Source: Ectocarpus siliculosus (Eukaryota; Sar; Phaeophyceae; Ectocarpales; Ectocarpaceae). Taken from it: a stretch of 28,547 nt of DNA. Position numbers and translations under genes: made by a program. The notes below the pieces were generated by a model, which was not told where the DNA came from, did not search any database, and saw only the letters and a list, made by a program, of their open reading frames with translations. Location of the stretch: NCBI GenBank assembly GCA_000310025.1, contig FN649738.1, positions 1,289,675 to 1,318,221 of the forward strand, in the 5' to 3' direction. Within the stretch, counting starts at the first letter, position 1. The number at the start of each line of letters is the position of its first letter. This document shows, piece by piece, positions 1 to 28,070 of the stretch.

Positions 1-41
1 CCCCCCCCCCCCCCCCCCCCCCCGCCGTACGCCGTGAACAG

Positions 42-2255
42 TATCGCGCTTTGGCGCACACACGGCCTTTTACGTAGCGGCCGTCATGGGCGCGGCGTGG
101 CTGGCCGTGTGGATCTGCTTAGGCTCGGATGCTCCTCACTCGCGAAGAGAGGGGGAAAAATTCAACACGAAGGCGTTGCGTCCCCGCGAGGGTGTAGGGG
201 TTACGGCGGGGGAAGACACTGACGTCGACGGTACGACGAGGGCGGGATCGGAAGACGGATTGCCGAGGCCGGATGCGGGAGACGGGAGTTGTTGGGTGGC
301 GGCGGGGCTAGGGGAAGGAGGCCCCGGGGATTGGTCGTTTCAAAACCCGGCGGCAGGCTCGCCCTCGGTGTGCCGAGACCCTGCGCTGCTGCGGAGCAGC
401 AACCACGGCTCAGGATGCTCCGCAGAAAGAGGGGGCGGAGGCGGGGGCGTGTGTCTGGATTGCGTTGAACGCGCGCCCACCGAAGCCGACGCCGCCGCCG
501 GTCGCGTTGTTGATCCCGAGCCGATTCCGCCGGGCGGCGGTGACGACACACCTGTTGGCGACGCCTGCGGGGGGGGGGGTCCTGCTTGCGGCCACAAGTC
601 CACGGTAGTCTGTGGCCTCCTCGTTGCTAAGAGCGCCGCCCTCTCGTGGGACGAATCCAAAAAGGTGGCAGTTGTGTGCGATGGGAGGACGGAAGGGGCC
701 CCCCCCGCCGACGCCGCCTCCGCCACGAGCACGGATAGCGACACTCGGGCGGCGATCGCCGGCGGCGACGGCGGTGATAGCGGTCGAACCACCGGTGGCG
801 GTGATGGTGGTGGTAGCAGCGATGACAGTGGCAGCAGCCATGCGGCGAGTCTTGCAGCCCTGGAAGGCGTTTGCGAGCCCTCCAGCAGCGGGAGGGGAGG
901 CCGGGCGGCAGCGAAGACAACCGTTGTGAAGGCCTTCGAACGAACCGCGGCCCCTTTTCCGTGGAGGGCGATGGCCGCTTGCCCCGCGGCGTGGGCGTTC
1001 GTGGCCGGCAACGTGGGCGCGGGGATGGGCATCAACGTGGTGATGAGCTGGCTGCCGACGTACTACGAGGAATTCGTGCTGGTCGATCTTGAAGACATTC
1101 ACATCGCTGAGCTGGTAAGTGGATGGATCATGAACATTTGTTTCGCATGAGAGGGATGGGACGGAGGGGAGGGGGAGGGGGTGGGCGCAGAGAGAGACGA
1201 AACAACATGGGATGACTGTTCCTTACATCTGTAGGCCCAATAATGCATCGTGTTCTTCCGTGCGAGCTTTCTGCCTCCGCTCGTTCCCACCCTCCCACCT
1301 TCAGAAGTCGGCCTGTTATTGTCAGCGTTTGATTTCACCAAATTTCCGTAGGCACACATGAATCCCCCGCCCGATGATTGCTGCCGCACATCGAACGAAT
1401 GTATCCCCCCCCCCCCCCACAACCCCGCCCGCTTTCACGTATTGGCCACGCGACGTCTATCCTCTACTGCAACTCGCTGCTCAACCATATCACGCGTCCC
1501 TGAACCCGTCCCTGAACCCGCTGCCATCGCGATTCCGTCATCGCAACACTCTTTTTCTACCTTCCCCGACGTAACGTAAAAATGGAACCACCACCACCCG
1601 CTGAGAGCAGCTCTCGCCCTACCTGACCATGATGGCGTTCTCCGTCCTGGGCGGCGTCTCCTACTCGTGGCTCGTCAACGGCCGCGGCCTCCCGAGGGCG
1701 CGGTCCTCCAAGCTCGTCGCCGGGGCCGCCTTCTCCCTCTCCGTCGCCGTCTTCCCCTGCATGGGCCTGCCCCGAAGCTGCGCCGCCGCGACCGTGGTGT
1801 CCTCGCTGGCGCTGGCGAGCGCCGCCCTCTCGAGGGGGGGCTGGTCGACCAACCACATGGAGATCGCCGCCCCTGAGCACGCGGCGATGCTCTACTCGGT
1901 GGCCAACTCCATCAGCGCGGCCGCGAGCGTGCTCGGCATCTCCCTGACGGGGAAGCTGCTGGACACGTTCGGCGGGGGCGGGGAGCCGCAGGCGTGGACC
2001 GCGGCGATGGGCACGATCGGCGCCCTGTGCGGCGCCTGCGGTGTCCTGTTCGTCCTCTTCGCCAGAGGGGATGAGGTGCTGTTTCCCGCCACCGCCGGCG
2101 ATGCGGATCTCGCGGATGTAGAAGAAGGAAACGAAAAGCGGGAGGGGGGGGGAGCGGGCGAGTGGGGGTGGGGGTGGCGGTGCTGCAGGAAGGAGGACGG
2201 GATGCCGAGCGAGTGGCCGCGGCCCTTGGGCTGGAGCGACGAGAATTCGGTGTGA
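42..2255 (+). CDS. SLC17-like MFS anion/phosphate transporter, 5'-partial
   Basis: This is the C-terminal half of a major facilitator protein of the SLC17 (anion:cation/phosphate symporter) type, acting in a membrane. Proposed exons are 42-1114 (acceptor AG at 40-41, donor GTAAGT at 1115) and 1611-2255 (acceptor GCAG, phase 0, stop TGA). Exon 1 begins with a membrane helix ending in SDAP, as SLC17 helix 6 does. A roughly 270-residue Gly/Ser/Ala/Asp-rich loop follows, then PFPWRAM and a helix ending SWLPTYYEEF, matching the family's PWR...WLPTY start of the second half. Exon 2 carries four to five more helices, including GGWSTNHMEIAAPEHAAML, resembling the SLC17 N..DIAP.yAG signature, and ends in a charged Trp/Cys-containing tail. 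The N-terminal half lies outside the window. The substrate cannot be told. The family call is fairly sure; the borders inside the loop are not. Confidence 0.75.
1115..1610 (+). other. Intron of the SLC17-like gene
   Basis: GTAAGT donor and GCAG acceptor, phase 0. It holds a poly-C run near 1406-1419 and pyrimidine-rich sequence. No coding or RNA signal was seen in it. Confidence 0.65.
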
Positions 2256-2320
2256 AAAGAGAGGGGGGGGTTCGTTCTGTCTTTTGGCAACGGCACGGCG
2301 CAGGCCTTGGTTATTTTTGG

Positions 2321-2528
2321 GTGTGTTTGTGTGGAGAGACTCAAGTGTTTTTTTTTTCTGGTCGGTGTGGTCAAGGTTCTGTTCATGGAGGGCCTTGCGT
2401 TGTCGTTTTGATGTCGCTTGTTGGATGTGTTTGTGTGGAGAGATCATAGTGACTTTTTTCTGGTCGGTGTGGTGGAGGTTCTGTTCATGGAGGGCCTTGC
2501 GTTGTCGTTTTGATGTCGCTTGTTGGTT
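2321..2528 (+). repeat. 104-bp tandem duplication 3' of the transporter
   Basis: Two near-identical units, 2321-2425 and 2426-2528, share GTGTTTGTGTGGAGAGA, TTTTTTCTGGTCGGTGTGG, and a GTTCTGTTCATGGAGGGCC block. They begin about 65 bases after the transporter stop, so they probably lie in its 3' UTR or just beyond. The high identity points to a recent duplication. Confidence 0.9.
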
Positions 2529-5428
2529 GGGGGTAGAGGAGACGGTGGGGGCAGAAGGGATAGCCACTCACTCTGGGCAACAACAGCGGGACTACGCGCG
2601 GCGCGGGTTGTGTCTCGCCGAGGTATTGGACCACTGCTCTCGACGGTAGACTCTCGGCCCGCTGTGTCGAGCTCGTTGCTCGTTGCCGTAGCCGGACGGA
2701 CGATAATCTTGGCGGTACGCATCTCTTATCTTGCGTGCCAAGAAGAAATCGTGCCCCCACCCCCCCGTGCAATGACGTCGAGGCCGTCCTCAAGTCCGGC
2801 GACGTGGCCGAGAGCGGTATTCTATTGATCGGGCATTTTCATTTCGTAGCACTTTTTTTTTTTTAATCGTTTTTGACACCATGTTTAAGCGCGCACTCGT
2901 GCGCCGTAGGATACCCCGGGCGTGATGGAAAGGGAGGGATGTGCTGCAAGGAAAGTAGGCGTTCTTGTCTCCTATGAGACGCCCGCGGACTTGAATTTTC
3001 TTGGGGGGCCGTCAGTAACGGCTTGCTCCCTGTCGCTCTTCGTACCGTTTCCCCGAAACGTGTTCCGAGCACCTATTAGAAACGCCTCTATGCCGGTCAT
3101 GCGAAACTACAATAGGAGGAGACCGGTGTTTTTTGGTTCATCCATATGAGAGTTGTGGACTGTTGGGGCATCATGAGTACTACTGTGTTTTTTTTTTCTT
3201 TATTTTCGAATATTTTGAGGTGGTGGGGTGGTTGAACACCGTTTGGTTTCCCCCGCGTGTGTTACGCGTGCCGAGCGAGAAATCATCCCCCATCGGTAGT
3301 GCGCAAAGGAATCCGTTTCTGTTCTCCTCTATTTTAGAATTGAGTACGAACTGATCAATCCATCTCGGATCGGAGGCACTAGCAGGAGGAGACAAGCCAT
3401 AGCTTTGTCCATAGGTGCTGCGCCAATATGTTCGCAGTAGAGGATCTCTCGAATCGGCGTTTTGGCTTACATCTTTCGCGTGTGGCATGTCACCGCGGCG
3501 CTCGTTCGTTTTGTGTTTTCTTTGTCGCGAAAAAACGGGGAACAACGTGACAACAATCGTACGGATGTGCTCGTCATCTGGAGGTTGGATTTAGAAGAGC
3601 GTTGTTGGCGTTCGCTCGCTTGAGTGACAGTGATTGTTTGGGACTGCAGTCACCTCGAGAAGAGGACGCATCACTGCTCTTTCGTGCAGCATGTGTGCTT
3701 ACTATTGTTAGCTTGGGGTTGCTATTTAACTAGTATCGTATCGTCGTGTCGCATCGTAAAATACGCATCGTCAATAGCGTAAGCAGAATGTAAATGTTTG
3801 GCACAGACAGGACCGCTCCCAGGCGCGCTCGGCACTGGAGGCGGCGGAGTCTACAGTAGCAGTAGTCCATCTGTTTATCGAACGTTTCTGTTGTAGAATG
3901 GTGAGGTCTCGTACTGTTTTCGGGGGGCGGTTGCGGCATGGTTCACAGTCTGGAAACCCCGTGTGTCCGTTGAGGTTTGTTGCATGTGTTGATGGTTTGC
4001 ATGTTTGTGCTTGTTTTGCTGTCACTACAGACGTTGGCTGGTGTGGTTTCTACGTATTTGCTGTTTCCGTATGTTTATGTATGTGATGCCGTTCATCGTT
4101 TTTTCATTCGTTGGCTCCCGAACACGAAGAAATAGAGGATAATGATCGATCACGGTCGACTACTGTTGTAGCATGATATACGCTTGTTTCCACACGAGAT
4201 TTGAGAAAAGAGAGACAACGTGAAAACTCGTCGCTCTGCGTTTCGTGGCGTATGTAAGGGCAGACGTTGGCATCGACGATGTGTTTCCGGGGGGATCGAG
4301 GAAAAAATAAAAAATAAGTGGGCAACTGCTGTTGTTCGCAGGGGAGTTCTCCATGTGACCCGTGGGCTGTACCGCCTCCTCCATAGAGAAAAGGTCACTT
4401 GTGCGATGTGTGGGAGGACGCTGCAAGCGACTGACTAAAAAAGAGAGATTTTATAGGAACTAGGGACGACGAGGCGTGGTAACAGCAGCGGGGCCTCGCA
4501 CAACTACACGTAGATGCTGTACGTATTCAGTTTCATCAAGATATAGCTGAGGTGCGTGCTCGCCCTCCCCCTTCACCCCCTCGCCAATAGGCACCGGGGG
4601 GACGGACGCCCCGGCGACGCCGTCGGGCCGGATCGAATACTGAGCTGCGACTTGCGGCAACAAAGTCCGTTTTTGTAAAGGTAAAGCTCACGTGGTGCGC
4701 CCGCCCCCATCCACTTGCCCATTACGAGCCTTGTGTCTCCGCATGCATCGGGAAGGTGTTGAAGTTGGACAATCGTTTTTTTTGTCGGGGCGGGAATTTT
4801 TCGATTTTTTTCGGGCAGGCCGATCCGCCCCGATGGTGCAGTTGGTAACCTCGAAATCTTCTAACCCTCTCTACTCTCTACATAGGTTGTGGTTTCAAAT
4901 CTCTCGAGAATCGAAAAATTCGTACTATAACGGCGGAGAGTATACAAAAAGGAGGGAGAAATTGTTGAACACCCTAAGCCCCGCGCAGGGGGGGGGGGGG
5001 GGGGACGGAGAAAAAAACCAAAATCCTGTGTTTTCCGTCCTCCTGCATGACCCCGGCTGGTGCCTAAACAAATACCCAGAATAGATGGGATGAAAACAAT
5101 AATAACAACGATAACAATCGGCCCAGAAGAGATGTGGTCGAAATCAAGAACCATAACAACAACAACGGTACCGGTACGTACGTAGGTGGTCCCTAGGCTC
5201 GAGAAGTAAGGTTGCAAACGGTGAGTGATGCAGTTTTGCGGGAACAGAGGGCAACATGGTAGCGTGCTCGACTGTGCCATATTTTCGTCCGCGCAAAAAA
5301 GATTTAACGCCAGGAGAGGAGCATGTATAAACTGAGTTGGAATCCTACCTCCAGTCTCGTGTGAACAGTGAACGGATGTAAATATTTACCTGCTGGCGGG
5401 ACTGTATGCTTCGCCGCCGTAAATATTC
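2529..5428. other. Intergenic region without a recognisable gene
   Basis: Short open frames on both strands show no recognisable domain and no consistent exon structure. The stretch holds T-rich runs (2851-2864, 3188-3197), a G17-type run near 4988-5004, a CTACAG/CTGTAG element near 3852-3867, and the tRNA-like promoter boxes listed separately. Nothing else is supported here. Confidence 0.6.
4826..4905 (+). other. tRNA/SINE-like box A and box B pair (degenerate)
   Basis: TGGTGCAGTTGG at 4834-4845 fits the Pol III box A consensus, and GGTTTCAAATC at 4891-4901 is close to box B with one extra or changed base. The spacing of about 45 bases is normal for a tRNA or a tRNA-derived SINE head. TCTTCTAA in between resembles an Arg-TCT anticodon loop. 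The acceptor and T stems do not pair, so this is not an intact tRNA gene. It may be a decayed tRNA, a SINE fragment or chance. Confidence 0.25.
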
Positions 5429-5481
5429 TCGTAGATCTCGTAGATCTCACCGTAGATCTTCACCGTAGATCTCGTACATCT
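5429..5481. repeat. CGTAGATCT repeat cluster upstream of the chaperone-like gene
   Basis: Four copies of CGTAGATCT at irregular spacing, plus a CGTACATCT variant, lie about 85-140 bases before the proposed start at 5567. They could be in a promoter or 5' UTR. No factor can be named. Confidence 0.7.
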
Positions 5482-5566
5482 CTGATTCGCCAGTCCGCCA
5501 ATCTGCAGTCTACCCCGCACTGAGCTGAGTTGTGTTGAGTGTGCAACACACTAGACCCAACCGCGG

Positions 5567-5665
5567 ATGAACATGTGGCGCTTGAACTGGATCCACAGTA
5601 CTGTGCTATGTCTCGCCATCCTAGGCAAGATCCGCGTTGCAAGCACTCAAGACAACGAGATCGAG
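5567..5665 (+). other. Signal-peptide first exon
   Basis: ATG at 5567 starts 33 codons: a short basic N-region (MNMWRLNW), a hydrophobic core (STVLCLAILG) and a small-residue site (RVAS) before an acidic stretch, then a GTAACG donor. This is a textbook secretory signal. The following exon, 5805-5879 (acceptor GCAG, donor GTAAAA, 25 codons), joins in phase 0. Confidence 0.55.
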
Positions 5666-7858
5666 GTAACGTTGACCAGGTGAGAGATCCTGCACATTAG
5701 TTGGACACCTCCTGCAGATACAGGTACCCGGCAGCTTACCCTCTGGGTGGCACACCTCCTCCCGAAGACAACTTCACCCACTCAATCAGGACGTAGAATC
5801 GCAGATTTGCAACCGGGTTGCGCCAAGGACATTCCGTGAGGCCGTTGAAATGGCAGGGGTTTGCGAAGAAGACGGTCAGGTAAAAGCAGATTGTGGACGA
5901 CGTCTGTTCCTACATACAGCGGGCTACAGTACCAGGTACTGCTGTAGATCACGCACCTTTGTGTTTCCATAGCGTTCTCAGGCAACGTGGTTGTTCATTC
6001 TCGTTCTTTGAGCATCGCATCCTTCAACGAGATCGCCGAGAGAAGATCACAACGAAATAGAATTACGAAATGCATACATACCAGCATGAACTTCTGTGCG
6101 AATGCAACTTTGCGCCGGGTGCCGTGATTTTGAAAGAGCAGAAACCCTCCCGTAGACTACTGTAGTCTACAGTATCCCGGCAAGACAAACATGTACATGT
6201 TATTGAATTTGACAGTCAAACTTGCGAGATACTCTCTGATTTTCCAGCCCTTCCTTCCGACCGACGCCAAAAATGGGCATCAACCTCCGTGTGGGTGCTG
6301 TGGAGCGGTTCGAAATTTTGAGCACAAACGTGTCTTATAAGTCCTAACTATAAGTGTATGTACAACAGTATTGTAGCGATGTCCGTACGACCATTGCAGG
6401 CTGTTCGGCGGCCAAGTTCAAATGATATACTCTGTCAAGGGGGGGCGAGGAAGAAGGGTTATCCCGGTCATCCCCAACGGAAGGTAGACGGTAAATAAAG
6501 ACGACTGTGTGGTATGCACGCAGTACTCTACCCCCAAGACCGTGGAACACTGCTGTGCACCATTCGAGACTACAGTAGACGTTATGTCTGGCCTCTTCGT
6601 TTTCTCTCTCATGGGTCTTCATTTGACCTTGAAGGGGTCCTATTTGTTCACACCTTCACCTTCAAATGCTTTTGACGCTTGTGATATCGCACTGTCCACC
6701 ACCGCCGGTGCTTCGTATGCACAGGGGAACGACTGGACTCGGCATTCACCTGGTCAGCGAGTCGAAAACAGGATCACTGCTGAGGGGTGCCGTGGTTGAC
6801 AGGTACAGTTTTGCATGCACACAAGTGTCGCCGTTGCACCACAATACCGCATCCAAGCCGATGCGATCACGGTGGCCCCGCCCAACCAACTCTGTCAAAG
6901 GTAGCAAGCACCCCTCTGACGCGCAAGTCACTTCGTCCGCGCACCCAGGGTGGTACCCGAGAGCGCTGCTTCGTTCGTGCTGCTCAAGGGAGACATTCTC
7001 ACGACGGTAGCTGGTGTGGAGATCCGTCAATGGGCCCTGGACAACATTAACCGTCTGCTGGAAACTCAGGTCCGGGTCAAGATCAAGTTAGTGAGGGCAC
7101 CCCAACTCGGCGAGATAGGCTTCGGCCCAGAGGAAGGAGAAGGGGGAAGAGCGGAGAGTGCATCATGCTACGCGAGCATCGAGGGAGATGTCGACGACTT
7201 GCACGCCTTTGCATGTACCCCTGCGGCGTTCGGCAGCGACCTCCCCGCCTTCTCCTTAGAGAGCTCCGCTCTCCCCATTGTCGTTGCTCAGCCCCTCGAT
7301 CACTGCAAGAGAAGCAGCTTCGACGCTAGTGGATCCGCGCTCTTGGTCTCAAAGGGGGGGTGCCTGCCAGGTGCAAAGGCCGCCAACGCTGCTTGGAATG
7401 GTGCGGAGGTCATGATCTTGGTCGACGGTCAATACCCCCCGCTTCCACCCTTGCCGAGTGTCGCTGGCAAGAGGGTTTTGCCCCAAAGTTCGCGCGACAC
7501 CTCGAAGCTCCATGGCATCCCGGTTGTAATCGTCAGCAATGCAACAGGGTATCGAATGATCTCCGAAGTGCGAGAGAGGGGCAGAGAGGTGCTGACTTTT
7601 GCTCATTCAGGTCCGCATCCGTCCAGGTAAGCTGCCGTCCGCCTTGAGGGTACTAGCAGGGAAAATCGTAAGTCAAGTGGCGGGGTGGTGAATCCTCCCC
7701 CGCCCCCTCCCCGAACCAAAGCTAGGAGATGTTCCCCACGCGGCATGCAGAGCTTCTTCGTCTGCGAAAAACGTGCACCGCGACTGGTTCGCTGTGGTTG
7801 TGTTGAGAAACGTTGGACACGACCAACAGCATTTATGCACCGACCGTGACACGTCACA

Positions 7859-7893
<35 letters not shown>

Positions 7894-10800
7894 TGCTGTT
7901 GCTGCTGCTGCTTCCCTCTCGGACAGGCCGGCTACCAAACCTCGAAAGCAGATACCGGTGGACGAGGCAGAGAGTCTTCGGGTTCGTGAGCATCCCTTCA
8001 ACCTCAGATCTCTGTTCCGGGACGGTGAGATCGGGATCGAGTTTGGGAGCCCGGGGTTGCCCAAGGGTCAGACACCGACAACCCATCTGGCGGTGTCGTG
8101 CGAGCTATCAACTCTGCTCACAGGTATAGGTTTGCGCGTGTGTCTCTCTCTTTACTGTTAGCATCGACCGCGCTACATAACCGGCTGACCAACGAAAACA
8201 CGTCAGTCTCAGTGTGGTTGAAAACAGAACATGCTTCTAAATGCCATGATCTGGGACCCCGTGAGGGGGCGTCTCTGTCTTTGTGTGTCTGGTGACTCGC
8301 TGCTGCAGTATCATCCGTCTTGAGTATTCCGTCGTCGCGTTGACTCGTCGCCGTACGTCAGCCAACCGAAAGAGCCCCTCGTTTACTCCCGTGGGAGTGC
8401 GGTGCCATGGTGCGGTCGCCTGCTACTGCTGTAAGGGGTGCTCTTTTCGGTGTGTCTTTATTATCCCGCGCGTTCCCGCTTCCTTCTAGGCCTTCAGAGA
8501 AGGGTACCCTTCGGTAGGACGGTTCCCTGCCCGGTGTGCAACGGAAGGGGAGCTCCCGCAGAGGCAATGCGCCCGTGTAAAGCATGCAGGTACGGTACGC
8601 TCGTGAAACCACCAAGTCCTGAAATGGCTCTGTTATCTCCAGGATGAGGGTAGTCATTCGAACTACATATACGGCTTGATCTCTCGTCCGAAACGAGACA
8701 CTTACATACCTCGTGTCTTGGTCATGGCACGCCGTCAGCACTCACTTACGGAGGGCACAGAAACAAGTAAGTAGACCGCCGCTGCGCGGGACGATACGCC
8801 ATATACGTGCACTCAACATGCTGAGCCCTGCACCCCCTATTGATGCCGGGCAGCTCTTCGGGCGAGCCGGGCGTGGCGGCCGCAGCCCACGATCACAGCC
8901 ACGAGGTGAAGCAATCTCTGAGGACCACTTGCCCGCGCTGCCATGGGTTCGGAGAAGTCCCACAGTGGGGGCGTTCGTGCCAGCGGTAAGGGGTAAGAGG
9001 GCTCGTCCTTCGGTATCCACCTGCGACGTCTTGAACGTTTCGTTACGCGCAGATGCAAGGCGACGATCACACTGCTGTCCGCCGTGACATTCAAAGCTCG
9101 CCGTAATACATATAAGTGTCGGGCCTAGGTACACGGGTGTGCTCAGTAGGGCATATCGATGTACTCGGGGTCGATTTGTGAGTGCCACGCAGACTCTATT
9201 CAAGCACCCGCGTAGATTTGACGTGCCACCGGGATGCCCTCCGCACCCGGCGGATAGGAATCTACCTATACCCGAGTAGTACCAATCTACTCTTTCCCGC
9301 GTAGATGGGTCTGAAACGTGTTGCCGGCAATCTATTTCTATCAGGGTAGGTTTAGGAAAAGTGGCACCAACAACATCCGGCCTCGGGTTCCATGAAGAAT
9401 TTCACTTCACAGCCGAGGATGCAAGAATTTTTCTGTTATCGCTCGGTCGCGAGGTTGCGGATACAGCAACATACATCTGTTACTTCTGCAAGTATTTACA
9501 CATTTGTTCTTTTCGCGAGTGGCAGGACTACACATCTGCCGTTACTGCTCTCGTTCGTTTCACCCCGTTTTGGAGGTCAAGCCTCCTGAGCGTGTCCCTC
9601 AGCGGTCGCCGAGTCTGTGCAGGAAATGCGCCGCTTAGGCCATTTCTTTTACGGCTCTTTTTTGGGGATGTCTTTTACTTTTTTCCTTCTCAAAAAGAGA
9701 CAACTCGCCAAAGAACACCTTCTTACGACGAGCGTTCGCTACTCCTGTCGGTACGGTGCGGGGCTGCATTATGATGTCGGGTGTGGGTAGCGGCGGTTCC
9801 GTCGAACAAAGGCCTGAACAAATGGGGTGGTCTACTCACAGGGGCTCACGAGAACTCGGTACTACTACCCTGTTTTTTCCCCCGTCACCCCGGGTGTCCC
9901 ACTCGGAGACCCATACCCGGGTAGACAATAAGGACTGGCTCCCGGAGCTTGAAAACAAAAGTTTCTTCCTAGTTTCCCCGGGTGTTGGACAGGATGTGGA
10001 ACGTCTCTCTCACCCTACCGTACCTCTCGGGTTTCGGTGGCGTTAGCGCACGCCCTGCGAAAAGACGCCCATCCCTGCTGGACATTCACCCACGTTTTCG
10101 GTCACTCTAATGCTCCAGATCCTGCCGCTACGCCGACATGCGGGTGGCGGTCGTCCGTGAGATCACCGATTTGTGTCTAGACTATATCTTGTTTGTTTTT
10201 TTTCCTCGGCGTAGGTGCAAAGGCGAACGCGTCATCCAGGAGTCCGGCTGGCTTGACCTGACAATCCCCAAAGGAGCACCCGACCAGCACAGGATTCACT
10301 TTCCGGGCGTCGGATCACACTTTCCCGGAAGGACGGCGGGCGACGTCGAGGTAGGGCGCCGATGCACTATGAGACAACCCCAAAAAGTTGTTGGTTTTGC
10401 GCATCGTGTATGGTCGTCCAAACCGAAATAACATTGTTCCGCGCTTGCTTTGGTGCGCCAGCATCATTGTACGGGAGAGAAGAGCGGGACCTTCGACAAG
10501 ATCCTTCCTGTTTCGTCCTGAAGTGGTGATTGTATAATAAGCCGTGAAATCTGACATGTTTCTCGGGTGAACGGCCAGCCAAGTAGTGACACCGAAACAC
10601 ACTCTGAAACAGGTGGCGGTCAACTTCAGAACAAAAAAAAAGTAACGTTCCTGCCACCGCCTTCCTCAGGTGTTGGAGCACTTGCAACCGTTCCTGCTCC
10701 ATCACAAACACGTACTTAAGATCGCGCTTTGATTTGGTTGGCTTGTTCCACAAAATGTTTCGCCGGCTTTCTTATGACGAGGGATTCGTGAGGCTCGAGT

Positions 10801-11505
10801 ATATATCGCAACTTGCAACCCCACCCCCCCGCGTTTTTTGAAGGTCGCGATAAACATTGAGCCTCACGAACGGTTCATGCGAGACGGTTCCAATCTACGA
10901 ATGGAATTACCCATTTCTCTCACGGAAGCTCTCTCCGGCTTTACTCGAGAGATCCAGCTGTTGAATGGGAGCACGGTCCTCCTCAACAGGACACGGGTGA
11001 GCGCCAAGAAACCGACATGAAAGTTAACGCGGGTTCCCGTCGCAAGGAAACGACGGGCAGGAATGGAAAGCGAAAGGCCCCTTATAAAGTTGACCACACA
11101 GAGATACATGTTTTATTGAGGTTGATACATACTTTAATACTGTCGTTCCTGCTTAGATCTTTGGGTGGGCTTGTTTCGGTGTGTTGTCACGTAGTTCAAG
11201 CAGTACACAAAAAACGCAACCCAACAAAACAAGGCGACATGATATCGCTTACTTTTGCCACAATTGCACAGATGATCAGCCACAATGGTGAGGTAGAAAT
11301 CGAAGGAGGAGGGCTCCCGGTGTGGGATGGCGGCCGTGGGGCGGGCACTGGATGGAGCACACACTCGTCAACTAATGCCAGCGCACTCCTGGCCGACAAA
11401 ACAGTTACTGGTTCGACGATCGTCACTTGCAGCGTTGAATTTCCAGATATTACAAGCGAACGTCTTCAGGGCCTCGACAGCGCTGGGGCTGCTTCAGACG
11501 AGTGA
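5567..11505 (+). CDS. Secretory PDZ-PA-Hsp40-like protein lacking a J domain
   Basis: A multi-exon gene. Proposed exons: 5567-5665, 5805-5879, an unresolved stretch, about 6725-6802 (the 5' border may lie upstream), 6949-7626, 7927-8123, 8490-8589, 8854-8985, 10215-10350, 10844-10996, 11272-11505 (stop TGA). From 6725 to the end every junction keeps phase with GT-AG borders and gives 569 codons. Domains in order: signal peptide; PDZ (TTGLGIHLV ... LLKGDILTTVAGVEI); PA domain (ALLVSKGGCLPGAKAANAAW ... LHGIPVVIVSNA); Hsp40 C-terminal domain I, interrupted by a DnaJ zinc finger; Hsp40 C-terminal domain II, ending without KDEL. No HPD-bearing J domain was found. The likely location is the ER or secretory pathway. 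It may be a holdase or adaptor that does not stimulate Hsp70. Function is inferred from domains only, and the upstream exons could belong to a separate gene. Confidence 0.65.
5880..6724 (+). other. Unresolved intron/exon stretch before the PDZ exon
   Basis: The signal-peptide exons end in phase 0, but the PDZ exon needs a preceding phase-2 end if it starts at 6725. So an exon is missing here, or the PDZ exon starts upstream: its frame is open back to 6633 and includes VLRMHRG, which would serve as the PDZ first strand. One candidate small exon starts at 6249 after TTTTCCAG and could end in phase 2 before a GTGTGG. The stretch also holds hairpins near 5924 and 6152. No J-domain HPD triplet was found. 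Confidence 0.4.
6949..7626 (+). other. Exon encoding the PDZ remainder and PA domain
   Basis: The exon (acceptor CCCAG, donor GTAAGC) finishes the PDZ fold with PESAASFVLLKGDIL and RVKIKLVRAP. After an acidic linker comes a PA domain of about 100 residues: SALLVSKGGC, a helix (GAKAANAAWNGAEVMILV), then IPVVIVSNATG and a closing helix. PA domains sit in secreted or luminal proteins such as subtilases and sorting receptors, which agrees with the signal peptide. Confidence 0.65.
7859..7912 (+). repeat. (CTG)n microsatellite before a splice acceptor
   Basis: About 18 CTG/TTG units end 14 bases before the acceptor of the exon at 7927, replacing most of the usual polypyrimidine tract. Confidence 0.95.
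7927..8123 (+). other. Exon encoding the start of Hsp40 C-terminal domain I
   Basis: After a basic linker the exon reads PFNLRSLFRDGEIGIEFGSP, then THLAVSCELSTLLTG, matching the DnaJ strand 'l.vsLEdlynG' that precedes the zinc finger. It starts after GGACAG, completing an AG codon left from 7626. It ends in phase 1 before GTATAG, and the next exon restores the frame. Confidence 0.65.
8490..10350 (+). other. Exons encoding a four-module DnaJ-type zinc finger
   Basis: Three exons (8490-8589, 8854-8985, 10215-10350) carry CPVCNGRG, CKACSSSG (split over an intron), CPRCHGFG and CQRCKGER (split over an intron). These are the four CxxC modules of type I Hsp40s, expected to bind two zinc ions. A His-rich insert (AHDHSHE) lies between modules 2 and 3. 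The last exon continues into SGWLDLTIPKGAPDQHRIHF, the DnaJ strand 'l.V.IP.G..dG..I'. The intron 8986-10214 (1.2 kb) is the largest of the gene. Confidence 0.7.
9190..9355. repeat. Cluster of CCCGcGTAGAT / ATCTAC-type short repeats in an intron
   Basis: Within the 1.2-kb intron, variants of CCGCGTAGAT, ACCCGAGTAG, AATCTAC and GGGTAGGTTTAG recur in both orientations. Related CCCGGGT blocks occur again at about 9890-9985. They look like remnants of a dispersed repeat with inverted motifs. No element can be named. Confidence 0.4.
10844..11505 (+). other. Exons encoding Hsp40 C-terminal domain II
   Basis: Exon 10844-10996 encodes INIEPHERFMRDGSNLRMEL and ISLTEALSGFTREIQLLNG, very close to the DnaJ pattern 'h..F.RdG.dL...v.isl.eAllG'. 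Exon 11272-11505 encodes EGGGLPVW and VTCSVEFPD, matching the terminal 'GmP......GDL.v...v.fP', then a stop. About 20 residues between these motifs look like an insertion. Confidence 0.65.
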
Positions 11506-13871: not shown

Positions 13872-15325
13872 TGCTGTAGTAAGAGGCCCTGCTGCGCAAG
13901 GCGGTATTCTTCAAAGAGATTTGCCGACCTTATTCCGGGCACCCGGCACTATTCAGAGATCACACAACTTATTCAACGGCCTTATACAGCAGGACAACCG
14001 GGCTCATGCAGACACCACTGTTGTGGTAGGTGCTGAACATCGACTGGGAGAGAACCCAAGCAACGCACATGATGAATCAGATCAGTTGGAAAGCATTGCG
14101 CACAAAAGTATCCCTTTGTTGTCGCACAGAGAAGGAGTTGGGTCTTGTCTCTACCTCCGCACACACACCCTCTCAAACCAAGGCAAATAATTTCGTCAAG
14201 CCAAAACAGCAGTCAAAACGACAGATGTTGAAGTTGTTTGATTTATCGGGGTCCCGATCTGAAATGCTCCACCAGGTGGTATGTATCAGTACCGGATATC
14301 ATGGAATATCAACGTGTTGCTACTGCTGCTTGGCTGTGCTGTCGAAGGCTGCAACTGCCGTCCGCAAACCTGGACCGAAATCATTCATCTTTCGCTGTCA
14401 CAGACCCCATCTCCTAACTTGCGGGTCTACAGAAGTGTGTTGCTCATGTCAGTAGCTGCCTTGAGTACCCGTAGTCCAGGCCGTTGGGGTTTGTGGTGGC
14501 GAGTGCTAGCAGGGTCAACGTTGGATTGGTACCAGATTAATACACTAGTCGAACTCAGCTGTTCCCTTCTGTGTCACGGCCACAGCAACAGATCTGAGCA
14601 AGGCCACGCGCAGTTCCATGATGTCCTCTACTGCTACTGCTGTAGTTCACGTCTGGACTCCGGGAGGTCGTTTTCGAGTGTTGGTTTTTCATCATCGTCG
14701 TGGATCTATCATAGGACCCAAACCTATTTGACCGCCCTTGTCCGCACGCCCTTACTGGGTCACAGCGAATCAGAATAGTTGGTGTGCATGCAATCTTACC
14801 CACTATCTACCGGAACACGTTTGAGCTTGGAGCTTCGCGCGCAATGTGCAACGCATTGCGCCACGCGGGTATATACCGCACCTTGACGCAAGTTTTACCT
14901 AAAAGGCTAAATGCTATTCGGATTCGACGCACATCATGTAACCACCCTGTGCAGCGGTTTGTGTCCGAGGTTCAAAGCCTATGTAGTCATGGCGGTGTGA
15001 AAAGGTTGGTCACCAGGTTCTCATTCCCATTCTGATGCACGTCGTATTGAATAAAACAGATGCTATGCATTTTATGTAGCACGACGGTTAGTCATGAAAA
15101 GACGATGACTCGTGCCGAAAAAACCTCACTGGAGTGCCCGGCCTTCCCCGTTACCCTTGCTCACCGCTCCTTGCTTCTTTCGAAGCCGAATCGAGGCCAT
15201 CGGCGGCCACAACCGACGATGCTGACAGACGTCGGTGCCGTCGAGACGCAGGTCTCCGCGCGGCGGCGGCGTCTGGATGGCTCCCCTTCGCCGACCTCAT
15301 CACCTTCCAGCTCGCGTCGTTAGCC

Positions 15326-16678
15326 ATGTGCGTCATCTGCCGCCATGCGCAGAAGCCGGTGCTGGTGAACGTTGCCAAGCGGACACCGAAGACGCTCTGG
15401 TCGATCGATCGCCCACGGATAGCTCACGAAAGCACCGACAGCGCCGACGAGGGCGAAGGTAGTGGGGGAGCGCCCGGCTTTGCCAGCCGTGTGCCTCGCC
15501 CGACCATCGAAGCCATCTCCTGGATCCGCGCATCGCCGTGCCCCGCTCTCCGCGACAAGCTTCCCTCAGAGGCGAAGCGGCTGGCGTTCGGGAGCAACTT
15601 CAACCACACGGTGGTCGGTATCCGCTGGCCCGAAGGGCTGGAGGAGATCAGGTTTGGGTCCAAGTTCTCTCAGCCCGTCGCCGGAGTCGCGTGGCCAGCC
15701 TCCCTGCAACGACTTTCGTTCGGACAGGCCTTCGACCAGTCGCTGGCGGACGGGACGTTTCCCGAAGGCCTGAAAGAAATTTCCTTCGGCTCAAAGTTCA
15801 ACCAGAGCTTGCTACCAGTACAAGACAGCACGGACAAAGTCAAGGAGGGAGGGGTGCGGTGGCCCTCGACCCTGGAACGCATCACCTTGGGAAGCTACCG
15901 TAGGAGCTTGACCGGGGTGTCGTGGCCGCCCGGACTCCTTGCTCTCGTACTCACGGGCGAGTTCGACCTCCCTCTCGCCGGGATAACGCTGCCGGGCAGC
16001 CTGGAGGAGTTGGAGATCTCCTCGACCTTTAACCACCCAATCGACGAGGTGGACTTTCCCCGGGGCTTAAAGACGCTGACGTTCGGGAACCAGTTCAACC
16101 AGGCCATAGACAAGGTCAAGTTCCCGGCGGGGCTGGAAATGCTGAGGCTCGGGCTGTCGTTTGATCAGCCCGTGGCGCGGGTAGACTTCCCGGCGAGACT
16201 GTCGCACCTCTCGATCGACAGCAAAGCATTCAACCACCCCGTGAGCGGGGTCTCATGGCCAGATTTCATGACGGATCTTCACTTCGGGGACGGCTTCAAC
16301 CAAGAAATCAACTCCGAGGCGTTGCCCCCACGATTGGTTCGGCTAGCGTTAGGGGACCGCTTCAACAAGCCGATCCTGGGCGTGGCTTGGCCTCCCGGGT
16401 TGCGTGACCTGTCGTTCGGCCACAACTTCAACCAGCCCGTCGTGGACGTCGTGTGGCCGTCGTCGCTCAGACGATTGCGCTTCGGAGCGCGGTTCAAGCA
16501 GTGTCTCTCGGGGACAGACTGGCCTACCGGACTGGAGACGCTCGACCTCGGCCACTGCCACATGACGTGGGGGTGCGGGCCCAAAGAGGGGTACGAGAAT
16601 TGGTCACCACGGCTGGAGATTATCTCGCGGAAGCGCATTAGCACCCTTGGATGGCAGCGGAAGGAGGAATGCCGCTAG
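15326..16678 (+). CDS. FNIP-repeat (LRR-like solenoid) protein, intronless
   Basis: A single uninterrupted frame ends at TAG 16676-16678. From ATG 15326 it gives 450 residues. About fourteen FNIP-type repeats of roughly 22 residues run from residue 92 (15599) to near 16570, with the pattern F-N/D-x-P-[IV]-x-x-[VI]-x-[WF]-P-x-x-L-x-x-L-x-F-G (for example FNQPVVDVVWPSSLRRLRFG). Repeat four carries a short insert (about 15790-15870). The N-terminus has a CxxC pair (MCVICRH). FNIP repeats are known from Dictyostelium, brown algae and giant viruses and form protein-binding solenoids. No enzymatic domain is seen. The frame stays open upstream to 15134 without an ATG, and encodes a weakly F-box-like stretch (LPFADLITFQLAS), so the true start may lie upstream. 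Family call is strong; partner and role are unknown. Confidence 0.8.
   Translation: MCVICRHAQKPVLVNVAKRTPKTLWSIDRPRIAHESTDSADEGEGSGGAPGFASRVPRPTIEAISWIRASPCPALRDKLPSEAKRLAFGSNFNHTVVGIRWPEGLEEIRFGSKFSQPVAGVAWPASLQRLSFGQAFDQSLADGTFPEGLKEISFGSKFNQSLLPVQDSTDKVKEGGVRWPSTLERITLGSYRRSLTGVSWPPGLLALVLTGEFDLPLAGITLPGSLEELEISSTFNHPIDEVDFPRGLKTLTFGNQFNQAIDKVKFPAGLEMLRLGLSFDQPVARVDFPARLSHLSIDSKAFNHPVSGVSWPDFMTDLHFGDGFNQEINSEALPPRLVRLALGDRFNKPILGVAWPPGLRDLSFGHNFNQPVVDVVWPSSLRRLRFGARFKQCLSGTDWPTGLETLDLGHCHMTWGCGPKEGYENWSPRLEIISRKRISTLGWQRKEECR

Positions 16679-17774: not shown

Positions 17775-28070
<10,296 letters not shown>

Follow-up and report, generated by a model that had tools for sequence, protein, structure and literature searches.

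A 28,547-nucleotide stretch of Ectocarpus siliculosus DNA (assembly GCA_000310025.1, contig FN649738.1, here C13, forward-strand positions 1,289,675 to 1,318,221; hereafter the window) contains at 5567-11505 (+) a predicted single gene whose product combines a PDZ domain, a PA domain, a zinc finger of the DnaJ type and the C-terminal region of DnaJ, and in which no J domain was found. We read the product as a secretory-route protein with an N-terminal signal, followed by PDZ, PA and the zinc finger and client-binding region of a class A-type Hsp40, that would hold clients without firing Hsp70; the probability of this reading is put at about 0.5. From the gene model we infer the transcript, the location, client binding, the PDZ ligand and the absence of Hsp70 coupling.

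Domain composition and gene structure

A preceding sequence-only reading, made by a model that saw only the letters and their open reading frames, had claimed that PDZ and PA are fused to the C-terminal half of an Hsp40, and had proposed a hidden Markov model search of the spliced protein as a check. Pfam analysis of the spliced protein bore out this fusion. Matches above the cut-off were observed for PDZ (PF00595; amino acids 34-111, E 4e-7, 30.8 bits vs 23.2; window 5666-7090 over three exons), for PA (PF02225; amino acids 173-265, E 2.9e-7, 30.9 bits vs 23.9; window 7274-7552; 34.8 bits unspliced) and for DnaJ_C (amino acids 345-552, E 3.8e-20, 72.9 bits vs 26.6; window 8090-11340 over six exons). 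The zinc finger family DnaJ_CXXCXGXG was matched just under its cut-off (amino acids 369-437, E 1.8e-7, 31.8 bits vs 32.7; window 8528-10227 over three exons), and the J domain, PF00226, was not detected on the 606-residue protein. In a PDB search, the Hsp40 part was nearest to human DNAJA2 (E 6.6e-25), followed by yeast Ydj1 (E 2.2e-21). With these Pfam and PDB values, the domain assignment is far beyond chance.

The predicted gene lies in a genome with intron-rich genes, and its nine exons have GT-AG borders and join in phase, as had been claimed, into 606 codons and a stop codon. An in-frame TAG at 5552 lies upstream of the start codon. The features are as follows.

5567..5679, +: exon 1, with the start codon, a hydrophobic signal-peptide-like N-terminus and the first PDZ strand (donor CAG/GTGAGA, phase 2 join; PDZ match from amino acid 34 at 5666)
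6725..6802, +: exon 2, with the PDZ carboxylate-binding loop GLGI, amino acids 42-45 (splicing in phase, Pfam, motif check)
6949..7626, +: exon 3, with the remainder of PDZ, a linker and the entire PA domain (Pfam; PA also above the cut-off unspliced, C13:1296948-1297226, window 7274-7552)
7627..7926, +: intron between the PA part and the Hsp40 part (donor CAG/GTAAGC, acceptor CCCTCTCGGACAG, phase 2 on both sides)
7927..8123, +: exon 4, with a linker and the beginning of C-terminal domain I of the Hsp40 part, and without a methionine in frame (splicing, Pfam)
8490..8589, +: exon 5, with zinc-finger motif 1 (CPVCNGRG) and the beginning of motif 2 (CKAC) (Pfam, motif check; codon preference worst in the predicted frame)
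8854..8985, +: exon 6, with the end of motif 2, an HDHSH insert, motif 3 (CPRCHGFG) and the beginning of motif 4 (splicing, Pfam, motif check)
10215..10350, +: exon 7, with the end of motif 4 and C-terminal domain I (splicing, Pfam)
10844..10996, +: exon 8, with C-terminal domain I/II (Pfam; exon-wise DnaJ_C match C13:1300500-1300673, window 10826-10999)
11272..11505, +: exon 9, with the partly matched C-terminal domain II and the stop codon (splicing, Pfam, TIGR02349)

Domain matches tie the exons into two groups, exons 1-3 through PDZ and exons 4-9 through DnaJ_C. The matches to PDZ, the zinc finger and DnaJ_C cross the splice junctions, and the junction between exons 3 and 4, where the PA part meets the Hsp40 part, is the only one that no match bridges. 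This gap would suit two genes or two main transcripts, one for a PDZ-PA protein that terminates inside the retained intron and a separate, Hsp40-like one that begins further downstream. Retention of intron 7627-7926 would indeed stop the PDZ-PA frame at once, at 7630 in the unspliced frame. However, the donor at this junction follows the consensus, the acceptor is usable and the phases agree. Exon 4 lacks an in-frame ATG yet already bears the beginning of Hsp40 domain I, and none of the three ATGs in the intron is followed before 7900 by a donor of GTRAG type in the phase required. Thus, within exon 4 and this intron, the region scanned for first exons, the Hsp40 part has no plausible start of its own; nor was a J domain found there for a stand-alone Hsp40. 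A split of the locus is considered quite unlikely.

Codon preference was scored after training on 2982 codons from domain matches of other loci in the genome, some of which overlap and are counted twice. The predicted frame was the best in eight of the nine exons, under a fixed penalty for stop codons that lowers the scores of other frames. For six of the nine, the score in the predicted frame exceeded that of the best frame of every one of the eight introns.

Absence of a J domain

The sequence-only reading had stated that PDZ and PA take the place of the J domain and that no HPD motif lies upstream, and both statements held. No HPD was found in any + strand frame of window 1-11505. Thirteen J exons of the genome were used to build a J profile, which was run over the six-frame open reading frames of the window (at least 12 residues) and revealed no J exon; its best score was 4.3 bits, whereas all 17 held-out J loci scored 25-64 bits. 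Because Pfam had supplied these control loci, the test could miss a J exon that has diverged too far for Pfam, or one cut into very short exons. A whole-genome Pfam search (189,456,909 bases in 492 contigs), which lists the best candidates and thus gives lower bounds, returned at least 48 J hits, and among those listed none is on this contig. On these results a hidden J domain was rejected, and an assembly gap hiding a J exon was ruled out because the window contains no N. A spliced-in J-domain exon, named beforehand as the observation that would overturn the sequence-only reading, was neither found in the window nor listed on the contig.

In the same genome, DnaJ_C was found at seven loci (10 matches), on contigs C16, C476, C479, C22, C26 and C10 and in the window. 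At the first six, a same-strand J match lies 0.2-8.2 kb upstream; the window locus is the only one of the seven found without a listed upstream J match. J-domain proteins are defined by a J domain with HPD. As this domain was sought and not found, the predicted protein is not a J-domain protein by definition.

Zinc finger and client-binding region

The zinc finger keeps all eight cysteines. The complete CxxCxGxG pattern is present in two of the four motifs (CPVCNGRG and CPRCHGFG), the other two being CKACSSSG and CQRCKGER. Its middle part contains HDHSH and, with spacing counted by eye, is four residues longer than that of Ydj1. The earlier description as a full zinc finger stands for the cysteines but not for two of the motifs, and the Pfam score is just short of the cut-off (31.8 vs 32.7 bits). 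In an exon-wise genome search with the zinc-finger family, two hits were listed (C476 and C16) and the 5567-11505 locus was not among them, as expected because its finger is spread over three exons.

C-terminal domain I with its client pocket, a class A feature, is present, with DnaJ_C at 72.9 bits. The Ydj1 pocket is formed by I116, L135, L137, L216 and F249. Read by hand from the alignment with 1nlt, the residues equivalent to the last four are V361, F363, L446 and V479, all hydrophobic, and T342 corresponds to I116; the pocket is thus hydrophobic at four of these five positions. The DnaJ_C match ends at profile position 141 of 152, and the match to TIGR02349, the bacterial DnaJ model, covers positions 119-321 of 354. 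Both substrate-binding domains had been claimed; domain I is clear, and for domain II the match is partial and ends before the end of the profile.

PDZ, PA and the N-terminus

The carboxylate-binding, GLGF-type loop of PDZ is intact as GLGI (amino acids 42-45). The position of the class I histidine aligns here with L94, so a class I ligand appears unlikely. For this PDZ, eukaryotic MPDZ (2opg, E 2.6e-5) is a closer match than DegP (E 0.17). In the PA domain, C183 and C202 could pair, and a disulfide between them is a candidate only.

The N-terminus, MNMWRLNWIHSTVLCLAILGKIRVAST, is signal-peptide-like by hydropathy, with 33 residues preceding the PDZ match. Its hydrophobic core VLCLAIL followed by VAS/T fits a signal peptide by eye. 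The same architecture could instead be mitochondrial, the N-terminus being a presequence: it is basic (R5, K21, R23) and free of acidic residues before D29, the hydrophobic stretch is not very strong, and class A Hsp40s occur in mitochondria too. However, known PA domains are found in secreted, vacuolar or membrane-luminal proteins, and VLCLAIL with VAS/T suits a signal peptide, so that a mitochondrial location is judged unlikely. A luminal location of the predicted protein is plausible.

Observations against the proposed reading

Several observations weigh against the reading of a secretory-route client holder. The zinc finger falls 0.9 bits under its Pfam cut-off. The C-terminal end of domain II, which is the dimerisation region in class A proteins, is unmatched; dimerisation of the predicted protein therefore appears doubtful, and client binding may be weak. 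In the codon test, the best frame of intron 3 (-0.049) outscores exons 5, 8 and 9 (-0.116, -0.087 and -0.093), and for exon 5 the predicted frame is the lowest-scoring one. A single-sequence fold of exon 3 alone gave a predicted local distance difference test score (pLDDT) of 31.6, and this result was not used.

The signal peptide is weak by eye, K21 and R23 being unusual basic residues in the expected cleavage region; what is retained of the earlier claim of a signal peptide is a plausible hydrophobic N-terminus, judged by hydropathy alone. The C-terminal residues are ASDE and form no KDEL/HDEL-like retention signal, so residence in the endoplasmic reticulum (ER) is not implied. The earlier assignment as luminal is plausible from the hydrophobic N-terminus, the short stretch before PDZ and the PA cysteines C183 and C202, and does not extend to ER residence. 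Finally, the four N-glycosylation sequons observed are not above chance (mean 2.2 in 2000 shuffles, 16% of which reach four), and sequons were dropped as evidence for the secretory route.

Related genes in the genome

No second copy of the whole architecture was found in the genome, nine of the 12 matches falling on the window gene. Outside it, the best match was a class A Hsp40 on C16, with 31% identity over amino acids 340-523, and the remaining two had E values of 0.08 and 0.72. An exon-wise PDZ search gave six hits, and the window PDZ, which spans three exons, was not among them. Since neither this PDZ nor the zinc finger is listed in the exon-wise searches, similarly split copies could be missed too. 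An origin of the PDZ-PA exon in prokaryotes or viruses was also considered and rejected; pattern matches (84 in genome contigs and two in viral contigs) included none that was confirmed, in scans that reach close relatives only.

The lack of a second copy found, the two degenerate zinc-finger motifs and the weak domain II would fit a functionless gene, either in decay or the result of a recent fusion. On the other hand, nine exons are intact and give 606 codons without an internal stop, the eight zinc-finger cysteines and the PDZ loop are kept, and codon preference is in frame for eight of the nine exons. Such decay is therefore regarded as very improbable.

On C26, at about 36-39 kb (within 35500-45000), an apparent ER-type Hsp40 is followed by a long run of N that leaves its C-terminal half unreadable. 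A hydrophobic N-terminus, J exons, a G/F-like stretch and a cysteine-rich part were read by eye from the exon frames at this locus. Thus, the window gene seems to add to the set of ER J proteins rather than to replace them. Alternatively, rather than acting independently, the predicted protein may serve as a substrate adaptor in trans, pairing with an ordinary ER J protein or feeding clients to it and so to BiP. C26 does carry what looks like an ER-type J protein, with a comparable cysteine-rich region, and class A Hsp40s act as dimers; the end of domain II, the expected dimerisation part, is however unmatched here, and this role is considered doubtful.

Comparison with known proteins

Class A J-domain proteins (DnaJ, Ydj1 and DNAJA2, and the ER forms Scj1/ERdj3) share with the predicted protein a zinc finger of four motifs, two of them complete here, within C-terminal domain I, the order of domains I and II and the hydrophobic client pocket. 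Unlike in these proteins, no J domain or G/F linker was found here, PDZ and PA stand in their place, and the end of domain II is unmatched. Plant DNAJE proteins have a zinc finger and are not known to have C-terminal client-binding domains, and the predicted protein, with its DnaJ_C, differs from them in this respect. Plant DNAJE and DNAJF are described as J-less Hsp40 relatives thought to act without Hsp70 (PMC12063368). According to the same source, DNAJE proteins such as the mainly plastid ORANGE resemble the predicted protein in carrying a DnaJ-type zinc finger and no J domain, and DNAJF resembles it in lacking the J domain, in retaining the Hsp40 client-binding domain and in its supposed independence of Hsp70, whereas no PDZ or PA is mentioned for DNAJF in the passages considered (PMC12063368). 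Common descent with plant DNAJF proteins is doubtful.

In the periplasmic quality control of HtrA/DegP-DegS, a PDZ likewise stands beside a protein-quality-control module and reads exposed C-termini, but that module is a protease in place of an Hsp40, and the window PDZ is nearer to MPDZ than to DegP. ERdj3 is likewise not known to have a KDEL signal and, unlike the predicted protein, carries a J domain. ERdj3 (DNAJB11) is an Hsp40 of the secretory route that, once released, binds misfolded proteins in the extracellular space, and it is speculated that extracellular chaperones work as holdases (PMC9867986). ERdj3 after secretion would be the closest working analogue of the predicted holder.

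In the literature searched (titles and beginnings of abstracts, as part of longer lists), no description of PDZ or PA fused to the C-terminal half of an Hsp40 was found, and a search combining DnaJ, Ectocarpus and PDZ was without result. The candidates that came up, DNAJC10 with the neurabin PDZ and a red-algal myosin with a DnaJ domain, do not have the PDZ-PA-Hsp40 combination. The earlier statement that no such combination is known thus survives for the PDZ-PA fusion within that literature and gives way for the missing J domain, as J-less relatives are described (DNAJE/DNAJF, PMC12063368). Plants already have such relatives, so what is new, within that literature, is the pairing with PDZ and PA, together with a zinc finger and C-terminal domains that occur jointly without J.

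Neighbouring features

Other features were observed in the window. An MFS transporter-like gene lies at 38-2255 (+); its first open frame has a weak MFS_1 match (23 bits vs a cut-off of 33.4), and its second has none. At 15098-16678 (+), a long single stop-to-stop frame contains FNIP repeats (PF05725, 159.6 bits, six stretches), and an uninterrupted (TTG)n repeat occupies 21245-21418. Proline dehydrogenase exons at about 25900-28070 (+) (PF01619, 189.8 bits; protein joined by eye) are perhaps part of a longer gene starting further upstream.

Proposed function and significance

The Hsp40 groove of the predicted protein would grip hydrophobic stretches that unfolded or immature proteins expose. 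PDZ may read a C-terminal tail, either on the same client or on a partner in the membrane to which the holder is anchored, and PA would provide a further docking surface; PDZ, and perhaps PA, would in this way select or tether clients. With no J domain found, the protein should not by itself trigger the ATPase of Hsp70/BiP. It may act as an ATP-independent holder, or pass clients to separate ordinary J proteins. The predicted holding of substrates without Hsp70 activation would fit both the missing J domain and the four hydrophobic pocket positions out of five.

A more specific and tentative possibility is a dedicated holdase with two hands that works free of Hsp70, in the secretory route or at the cell surface. 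In it, PDZ would read the C-terminal tails of certain clients, secreted or membrane proteins, whose unfolded parts the Hsp40 half would grip, and PA would add docking. Such a holdase may be an invention of this lineage that serves wall or adhesion proteins. If true, an Hsp40 body would here have been released from Hsp70 and fitted with a head that reads addresses.

What normally defines an Hsp40 protein is its J domain, which drives Hsp70. A natural protein with a class A client-binding half, PDZ and PA and no J domain would separate the choice of clients from the firing of Hsp70. Overall, such a protein would be a natural test of an Hsp40 body acting alone, perhaps outside the cytosol.

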